Source: Stenotrophomonas indicatrix
Lineage (GTDB): Bacteria > Pseudomonadota > Gammaproteobacteria > Xanthomonadales > Xanthomonadaceae
Reading direction: 5' to 3'
Length of the DNA stretch: 64,000 nucleotides
NCBI GenBank assembly: GCA_041545745.1
Contig: CP168152.1
Location: forward strand, 3,408,001 to 3,472,000
A model generated the notes under the pieces. That model was not told where the DNA came from. It did no database searches and was given only the letters and a program-made list of their open reading frames with translations. Below, in pieces: positions 32,803 through 54,946 of the stretch (its first letter is position 1; every line of letters starts with the position of its first letter). Made by a program: the position numbers and the translations under genes.

Positions 32803-32888
32803 TGGGTTCGGCAGGGCTGCGCCCTGCACCTGCAGAGGCCAGAGCAACGGCAACAGCCGAAGCAAAAGCTGGCATTCCGTAGGATGGC

Positions 32889-32984
32889 GGGGCGGTGTCG
32901 GAGTGCGGGGACGCCGTAAATCCGTCCATGGAGGCTTGGCAGCCGCATCCATGCGGCTGACACCCCGCAATCCGACACCGCCCC
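32889..32984 (+). repeat. Composite hairpin element, copy A
   Basis: Outer arms at 32889-32910 and 32963-32984 (22 nt, one mismatch; GGGGCGGTGTCGGA...). Between them: core ACGCCGTAAATCCGTCCATGG, then GAGGCTTGG, then an inner hairpin AGCCGCAT-CC-ATGCGGCT (32941-32958). Right flank CTTCGACAG-ATTTCCG. Confidence 0.88.
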
Positions 32985-33158
32985 ACCTTCGACAGATTTC
33001 CGGTGGCTGATGGATCCACGCCATGCGTGGATGAATCTCTGTCAGATATCGAAATAATTCTGGGGTCAGACCCCATGCCATTCCGGTGTCGACCAAAGTC
33101 GACATCCACCAACAGCAACACAGAACGCCGTTCCGACAGATTGCGGAAAACTGTCGAA

Positions 33159-33260
33159 GGCGGGGTGGGTCCGGTTGCGGGGGTGTCCGCGGCATGGATG
33201 CCGCGGCCAAGCTTACAGGGACGTACTTGCAGCGTCCCCCGCAATCGGACCCACCCCGCC
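33159..33260 (-). repeat. Composite hairpin element, copy B
   Basis: Inverted relative to copy A. Outer arms at 33159-33183 and 33236-33260 (25 nt, one mismatch). On the minus strand the core reads GACGCTGCAAGTACGTCCCTG, then TAAGCTTGG and an inner hairpin CCGCGGCAT-CC-ATGCCGCGG. The flank CTTCGACAGTTTTCCG is shared with copy A. Confidence 0.85.
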
Positions 33261-33348
33261 ATCCCACGGATAGCCAGCTGTTGCTGTTGCTTCGGCCGTT
33301 GCCGTTGCTCTGGCCTCGGCAGGTGCAGGGCGCAGCCCTGCCGCCCCC

Positions 33349-36915
<3,567 letters not shown>

Positions 36916-54590: not shown

Positions 54591-54694
54591 AGCCGGAGCA
54601 AGGCAACAGGCAGGACACGCCGTAAACCCGTCCATGGGGGCTCGGTCGGCGCATCCATGCGCCTCACGGTCCTGCCTGCCGCCTTGCTCCGGCT
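54591..54694 (+). repeat. Composite hairpin element, copy C
   Basis: Outer arms 54591-54616 and 54669-54694 (26 nt, two mismatches; AGCCGGAGCAAGGC...). Core ACGCCGTAAACCCGTCCATGG, then GGGCTCGG, then inner hairpin GGCGCAT-CC-ATGCGCC (54648-54663). Right flank CGGACAGTTTCC resembles the flank of copies A and B. Confidence 0.88.
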
Positions 54695-54841: not shown

Positions 54842-54946
54842 GAGGCGGAGGGCATGGCCGTGCAGGACCGTTGGCGCCATGGATGGCGCCATCGAGCCCC
54901 ATGGATGGGTTTACGGCGTGTCCTGCACGGCCATGCCCTCCGCCTC
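54842..54946 (-). repeat. Composite hairpin element, copy D
   Basis: Outer arms 54842-54868 and 54920-54946 are perfectly complementary over 27 nt. On the minus strand the core reads ACGCCGTAAACCCATCCATG, then GGGCTCGAT and an inner hairpin GGCGCCAT-CC-ATGGCGCC. Confidence 0.88.

Follow-up and report, generated by a model that had tools for sequence, protein, structure and literature searches.

In the gap that separates an MFS transporter gene from a hybrid sensor-kinase gene of Stenotrophomonas indicatrix, two hairpin elements, A and B, face each other. They probably belong to a dispersed, REP-like family that swaps sequence between its copies and whose members form twin RsmA-binding hairpins, the RNA of one strand being selected; to this reading we assign a probability of roughly 0.57. 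For the loops, the strand bias, the matches to the Rfam family RF01731, and the dispersal taken together, an RsmA/CsrA-binding RNA repeat is the simplest explanation. Below, R1 denotes the strand on which an earlier, sequence-only reading described the element, and F denotes its complement; F, opposite to the strand first read, appears to be the selected one. The window is the whole 64,000-nt stretch of DNA that was analyzed.

The 546-nt gap extends from the stop of the MFS transporter gene (32802) to the sensor-kinase gene (33349-36915, minus strand) (Table 1). That paired repeat elements lie at this junction is an observation of the sequence-only reading, and a covariance model placed A and B there on opposite strands, confirming the inverted pair. 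The flanks beyond the two hairpins are also alike, each consisting of the stop, a GGCAGGGCTGCGCCCTGC hairpin, and a CAACGG-type run, so that the whole gap is an imperfect inverted repeat, as had been claimed. The core motif TCCATG given for the element holds for A, C, and D (ACGCCGTAAA/TCCATG) but not for B (ACGCTGCAAG/TCCCTG). C and D form a second inward-facing pair at 54.6-54.9 kb, and the only further matches to the R1 model in the window, up to an E value of 1, scored 15.7 and 14.1 bits. Each of the four copies folded better than 200 of 200 shuffled sequences on both strands (z, -6.7 to -9.5). SMAG palindromes of the GATCCACGCCATGCGTGGATC type often lie just inside pairs, for example at 33012-33032 of the window and in mid-pair elsewhere. 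The window's only Rfam match at the cut-off was a SAM riboswitch (RF00162; 48915-49033, minus strand; 74.1 bits).

Table 1. Positions of the elements, their F-strand loops, and neighboring hairpins in the window
Feature	Positions	Strand	Evidence
Convergent intergenic gap, imperfect inverted repeat with copies A and B	32803..33348	.	
Copy A, 88-nt model match on R1	32893..32980	+	98.8 bits; fold
A loop 1, ATGGAC on F (GTCCAT on +), RsmA/CsrA-type ANGGA	32924..32929	-	Sequence, loop statistics
A loop 2, ATGGAT on F	32947..32952	-	Sequence, loop statistics
Copy B, 88-nt model match on R1; F is the + strand of the window	33166..33253	-	87.3 bits
B loop 1, AGGGAC on F	33217..33222	+	Sequence, loop statistics
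B loop 2, ATGGAT on F	33194..33199	+	Sequence, loop statistics
Short GC hairpin 3' of the MFS stop codon, of a type common upstream of copies	32810..32827	+	
Short GC hairpin 3' of the kinase stop codon, mirroring the hairpin at 32810..32827	33325..33342	-	
Copy C on R1; F loops at 54630-54635 and 54653-54658	54599..54686	+	91.2 bits
Copy D on R1, one base shorter; F loops ATGGAT at 54901-54906 and 54879-54884	54851..54937	-	99.8 bits

A strict core pattern matched 43 times in the 4.66-Mb genome and not once when read backwards. The covariance model of R1 was built from an ungapped alignment (A3) of 36 of these copies, A and C among them and B and D not; three copies interrupted by insertions, two damaged ones (L019 and L040), and two with a one-base gap (L016 and D) had been omitted. 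It returned at least 150 matches genome-wide (the best 150 of 3905 candidates) and 161 in 80 fetched stretches, outside which the copy number is a lower bound. At least 70 bits was reached by 154 of the 161, and the seven below this score include halves cut by insertion. Collecting the genome copies with a covariance model, as the sequence-only reading had proposed, thus revealed a dispersed element. The loop statistics and the longer-arm mismatch counts of the genome refer to 135 distinct 88-nt copies among the 161, and those for other genera refer to 55 of 83 matches in other genomes, after removal of Stenotrophomonas, other lengths, short flanks, and duplicates. Gene calls from our own codon-usage caller underlie the counts of pairs and single copies, of copies lying past a gene, and of junctions here and across gammaproteobacteria, as well as the placement in operon gaps of low-copy genomes.

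On R1, the element consists of an outer arm, hairpins 1 and 2, the second arm, and then YTYGACAG-TTTCC. The nested arms described earlier are present, but the outer ones pair over approximately 25 to 28 bp rather than the 22 to 25 nt reported. Hairpin 1 has a GCC/GGC foot, a five-base bulge, a three-pair stem, and the loop RTCCNT, while the loop of hairpin 2 is ATCCAT; what had been described as a conserved core contains a second small hairpin (GCC ... YMC-RTCCNT-GKR ... GGC), which also covaries. Among 138 distinct copies, 95.5% of the cells pair, compared with 67.1% after shuffling and at most 48.1% after sliding, and 28 of the 31 pairs, including all 18 in the arms, vary on both sides. In this larger set, the GCC/GGC foot covaries as well (CG102/UA32 and CG134/GC3), although it was uniform among the 36 copies initially aligned. 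Among the matches listed from named loci, outer arms also pair well in 95 of 117 elements, with widely differing sequences. The claim that the stems covary and the fold is kept is therefore strongly supported, also by the unrelated arms found in other genera. Single-strand fold predictions left both GGAs open in 92 of 141 copies. There is no T-run directly 3' of the stem on either strand, the consensus being CTTCGACAGGTTTCC on R1 and CCATCCCACGGAA on F, and an intrinsic terminator was rejected for this reason.

Among transition mismatches in the arms, one kind prevails. On R1, 2482 cells contained 52 A.C against 6 G.T (42 against 6 when only distinct contexts were counted), and with longer arms the ratio in distinct contexts was 58:13 in the same genome, 68:8 in the 55 copies of other genera, and 113:16 in the matches listed from named gammaproteobacterial loci. 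Counted by element, 65 lean toward A.C and 6 toward G.T on R1, and 24 tie. Ten copies of other Stenotrophomonas gave 2:1, a sample too small to tell. Since A.C on R1 is G.U on F, we read the excess as wobble pairing on F. Divided by how the host genes are oriented relative to R1, A.C:G.T was 23:4 for ++, 18:5 for --, and 48:3 for +-, with only 2:1 in the small divergent class (-+). Because every orientation that offers sufficient cells shows the bias, the direction of the host mRNA was rejected as its source. Base pairing in which wobbles are tolerated thus seems to be maintained on F irrespective of the flanking genes. Other sources of such a bias could be a strand-specific single-stranded DNA stage or may be a mutational cause tied to the element.

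Both loops read C-ANGGAN-G on F, with N free. In loop 1, the fixed positions were A in 135, G in 133, G in 135, and A in 135 of the 135 distinct copies, and the free N was T in 60, G in 58, A in 14, and C in 3; loop 2 was CATGGATG in 129 of the 135. The four fixed positions were kept in 52 to 54 (loop 1) and 52 to 55 (loop 2) of the 55 copies of other genera. The pattern behind the R1 model determines most of loop 1, and the one used for the named loci determines loop 1 itself, so that in the latter an unbiased test comes from loop 2: among the matches listed there, it had GGA in 96 and lacked it in 15 of the 111 elements with a hairpin 2, its size varied, and hairpin 2 was absent by our own rule in six further elements. 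ANGGA is the RsmA/CsrA consensus, and the optimal spacing of two sites for one dimer is known; the two GGAs on F are 20 nt apart. GGA in paired hairpin loops is the described form of an RsmA/CsrA site (PMC4333381), and paired GGA loops are what F carries. The genome was shown to encode a canonical RsmA (C1:1705191-1705346), which we aligned by eye with CsrA, including Arg44, a residue of known role in CsrA. CsrA was found in 145 of 149 family genomes, among them genomes without the element, and being nearly universal its presence is uninformative as a predictor of the element.

We then compared the element with known RNA families. The TwoAYGGAY model (RF01731), a candidate RNA described in PMC2864571, found four places in the genome at an E value of 1e-3 or less (within the best 150 of 305 candidates), with 43.6, 41.8, 38.1, and 36.6 bits, the first alone exceeding the cut-off of 43 bits. 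Each of the four is the complement of an R1 match, on F, and the alignment spans both loops, the linker and the CGG after the second hairpin matching as well. The model did not list A or B up to an E value of 10 and missed nearly all other copies of the genome (best 150 of 305 candidates); it matched none of 18 loci of other genera at the cut-off and was not listed in eight gammaproteobacterial loci up to an E value of 0.5. Over the 149 family genomes, it matched 22, five of them over the cut-off, under stricter filters by which the S. indicatrix genome itself was missed. R1 matches occur in six of the 22 as well; in one of these, from another genus (G065), an RF01731 match over the cut-off lies opposite an R1 match, the only one of the six in which the two were seen to coincide. 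Several of the other matches are members of a second dispersed family. This family, found through RF01731 in other Lysobacteraceae (L381-L391 and L394-L398), has a different backbone with two C-AUGGAU-G hairpins on one strand, often with GTTGCT repeats before it and a TTTCTTTTG / CAAAAGAAA hairpin after it.

Like TwoAYGGAY, the element has a pair of hairpins whose AYGGAY-type loops lie on the same strand, ANGGAN loops being present on F in nearly all of the 135 copies; strict AYGGAY holds for part of them, the N of loop 1 often being G or A. Shared, too, is a poorly conserved external stem, all 18 arm pairs varying, and RF01731 belongs to the same Rfam clan (CL00106) as RsmW. For TwoAYGGAY, the available text of PMC4333381 gives a poorly conserved external stem, tandem G.A pairs in one stem, and a proposed binding of CsrA. 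The element differs in being a high-copy repeat with inward pairs at gene ends, of which A and B go undetected by the model. Ysr224 (RF02770), in contrast, aligned with R1. Its scores were below the cut-off of 70 bits for the window copies (29.5 and 27.2 bits) and in four of the eight gammaproteobacterial loci, and over it, exactly at the core, for copies of Yersinia similis and Sodalis (126.5 and 82.9 bits); the model ends inside the second arm. The statement that no named family is recognizable therefore does not hold: copies are detected by RF01731 on F and by RF02770 on R1, but A and B are missed by the former and fall below the cut-off of the latter. Since RF01731 fits F and RF02770 fits R1, a single element appears to lie behind two Rfam families, one on each strand. 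The available portions of the literature on Ysr224 contain no link to RF01731 or CsrA, and those of the open literature neither describe the repeat nor connect RF01731 with RF02770; the original reports of the Yersinia sRNA and of SMAG lay outside this scope. What is added here is the recognition of a dispersed form in high copy number, the assignment of a strand, and a proposed union of the two families; CsrA binding of TwoAYGGAY is itself an earlier proposal.

R1 matches occurred in 38 of the 149 family genomes and 16 of 54 genera, with 1 to 126 matches in each of the 37 rerun genomes other than S. indicatrix, and one genome of the same genus (G029) had none. A scan of named genomes gave at least 119 stretches, and the 80 listed come from many gammaproteobacterial genera. 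In low-copy genomes, the element sits in tight gaps common to several genera, with different arms: the tdh-kbl gap is occupied in L141, L146, L147, and L150 (three genera), and two genera have the element next to lpd (L145 and L151). Its orientation at tdh-kbl varies between genera: an mRNA would contain the F sequence in L141 and L150 but that of R1 in L146 and L147. At the MFS locus within the genus, the element lies 90 to 106 bp past the stop in 17 of 30 loci, with at least four arm types; it is flipped in L367, and four full-length loci have no match. The site of D is occupied in 20 of 30 loci, in four by damaged copies, and five have no match in the stretch. One 18-nt arm is common to 24 copies, while the partners of a pair share arms more rarely than by chance (1 observed, 5.7 expected). 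Between strains, much of the arm variation at one site is whole-element replacement by another type, not stepwise compensation, likely through conversion between copies. Chimeric copies made of two left halves were noticed in L019 (S. indicatrix) and L329, as expected from recombination between inverted partners.

The arrangement of the copies invites a different explanation, in which the long R1 hairpin ends or protects transcripts, stands head to head at convergent junctions, and has an incidental core; we consider this unlikely. It would account for the very stable folds and for the arrangement at 102 sites, which comprise 57 inward pairs (+-), one ++-, 44 single copies, and no outward pair (-+). 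Both copies are full length in 47 pairs, with a median spacing of 192 bp, and some of the other partners are halves cut by insertions. The table of flanking-gene orientation called for earlier shows that convergent junctions are enriched: element junctions are convergent at 40, codirectional at 53, and divergent at 9 of the 102 sites, compared with 24, 96, and 56 among 176 other gaps of at least 80 bp in the same stretches. Moreover, 105 of the 161 copies lie downstream of a gene in sense, mostly 40 to 110 bp past the stop and typically preceded by a short GC hairpin and a CAACGG-type run, and among the gammaproteobacterial matches listed, 29 of 86 are convergent and 5 divergent (97 copies, less 11 overlapping a called gene). 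Against such a role stand the missing T-run and the single 88-nt copies, which show no sense preference (++ 7, -- 13, +- 14, and -+ 7 in the R1 frame), and it does not predict the GGA loops, the free N, or G.U on F in every orientation. The bidirectional stop suggested by the sequence-only reading fares alike, favored by the convergent enrichment and disfavored by the conserved loops and the strand bias. Against the preferred reading, listed codirectional sites across gammaproteobacteria divide into 30 with R1 and 22 with F in sense, so the mRNA direction that would transcribe F is not preferred. RsmA binding and a function of the R1 hairpin at 3' ends may exist side by side. A six-base rhythm (GGCAAC/AGCAAC) lies 5' of most S. 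indicatrix copies on R1, at model positions -54 to -28, and could represent either a simple repeat or unstructured RNA of the Rho type.

Distinctly less probable is a mobile palindrome whose F strand is moved as single-stranded DNA by a transposase in trans, with the hairpins and loops as recognition marks. The copy number (up to about 150), the patchy occurrence over genomes and genera, the same arms at many sites, and presence or absence differing between strains favor it, and G.T is a mild mismatch in DNA also. However, the element was absent within 1.5 kb on either side of all four Y1 transposase genes of the genome. GTAG-type repeats accompany three of these genes; the fourth (L042, C1:1080363) lies between self-complementary 43-nt inverted repeats of another kind. 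Moreover, in low-copy genomes the element recurs in operon gaps that several genera share, although its arms differ. A RAYT or TIR repeat was rejected because the element is missing from the four Y1 loci. The REP/SMAG (GTAG) and TIR repeats of S. maltophilia are likewise high-copy intergenic palindromes, often in inverted pairs (PMC3733652), but the element measures about 110 bp against 20 to 40 bp for REPs (PMC3733652), its foot has the consensus GTGGGATGG instead of GTAG, and no Y1 gene lies beside it here, so that GTAG foot, length, and Y1 partner of REP/SMAG repeats with a RAYT are all lacking. The pattern occurred in two stretches of a viral collection, and a phage-borne element was set aside. 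Loop 1 also serves as an insertion target. Searching with the transposase of an IS3-type element gave 19 places in the genome, five of them identical and 14 divergent relatives. Each of the five identical 1434-bp copies (L046-L050) interrupts a repeat copy within loop 1, always at one position and in one orientation, and four have a three-base repeat. Other sequence abuts the same loop point in four related strains (L354, L357, L365, and L371), and in L355 a short scar containing the beginning of the insert is found there. DNA mobility in the history of the family is likely, although the four Y1 loci yielded no mover. An R1-strand sRNA of the Ysr224 kind that pairs with mRNAs through the TCCATG loops seems very improbable. 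The RF02770 scores speak for it, over the cut-off in Yersinia and Sodalis and below it in the window, as do several Ysr224 copies reported as transcribed in Y. ruckeri (PMC12112432), where Ysr224 is multicopy, and the label temperature-responsive in a review table (PMC9029176); since Ysr224, the one family with a reported RNA, is annotated on R1, this also argues against F as the only transcript. Wobble pairs are nevertheless avoided on R1, and the loop base beside TCC is free, which would be odd for a seed. Scarcely to be expected is a locking of pair partners by loop-loop kissing of TCCA with TGGA: 57 of the 102 sites are inward pairs and the loops of opposite copies are complementary in principle, but the free base of loop 1 was the same in 19 of the 47 full-length pairs (17.8 expected), and this independence between partners disfavors it.

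The reading as an RsmA-binding repeat has parallels on both the RNA and the strand side. Like the element, RsmX/Y/Z, CsrB/C, and RsmU carry several RsmA sites of the GGA-in-loop type on one RNA, and RsmU of Xanthomonas likewise originates in a 3' region (PMC7694677); they are single genes of known expression, whereas the element is repeated up to about 150 times and its binding is predicted. The available text of the same study reports no RsmX/Y/Z homologue in Xanthomonas by BLAST (PMC7694677). The reverse complement of Bacillaceae-1 (RF01690) likewise has CsrA-type loops opposite the annotated strand (PMC4333381), but it belongs to other bacteria, and the likeness is one of description, not of sequence comparison.

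A processed or structured RNA is the best supported of the three roles put forward by the sequence-only reading, though on the strand that it did not read. The F RNA would fold into a long arm of free sequence closing a core with two short C-ANGGAN-G hairpins, and would be a relative of the TwoAYGGAY RNAs. It would presumably arise by antisense transcription or by read-through; where two copies face inward, a transcript entering from either flank would include one of them in the F sense. The twin GGA loops would offer a ready dual site for one RsmA/CsrA dimer, and the copies, if bound, may titrate RsmA or hold it at 3' ends, keeping their sites while exchanging sequence between them. As a more tentative extension, which we think rather doubtful as a whole, the family may be a genome-wide RsmA decoy: the twin clamp of the F RNA would be selected, copies would be homogenized and exchanged between stable 3'-end sites, and copy number (1 to about 150) would set the amount of RsmA held, lineages tuning it by repeat number and not by RsmY/Z genes, with RF01731 and RF02770 as the two strands of one gammaproteobacterial element.

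The comparison of A.C with G.T among arm mismatches is applicable as a strand test to other palindromic repeats. If the preferred reading is true, two Rfam families whose role is unknown would become one dispersed element for which a strand is assigned and a testable protein partner proposed, and the element would be a rare bacterial repeat family showing selection on RNA pairing. It would also provide Stenotrophomonas and its relatives with a large set of candidate RsmA-binding RNAs.
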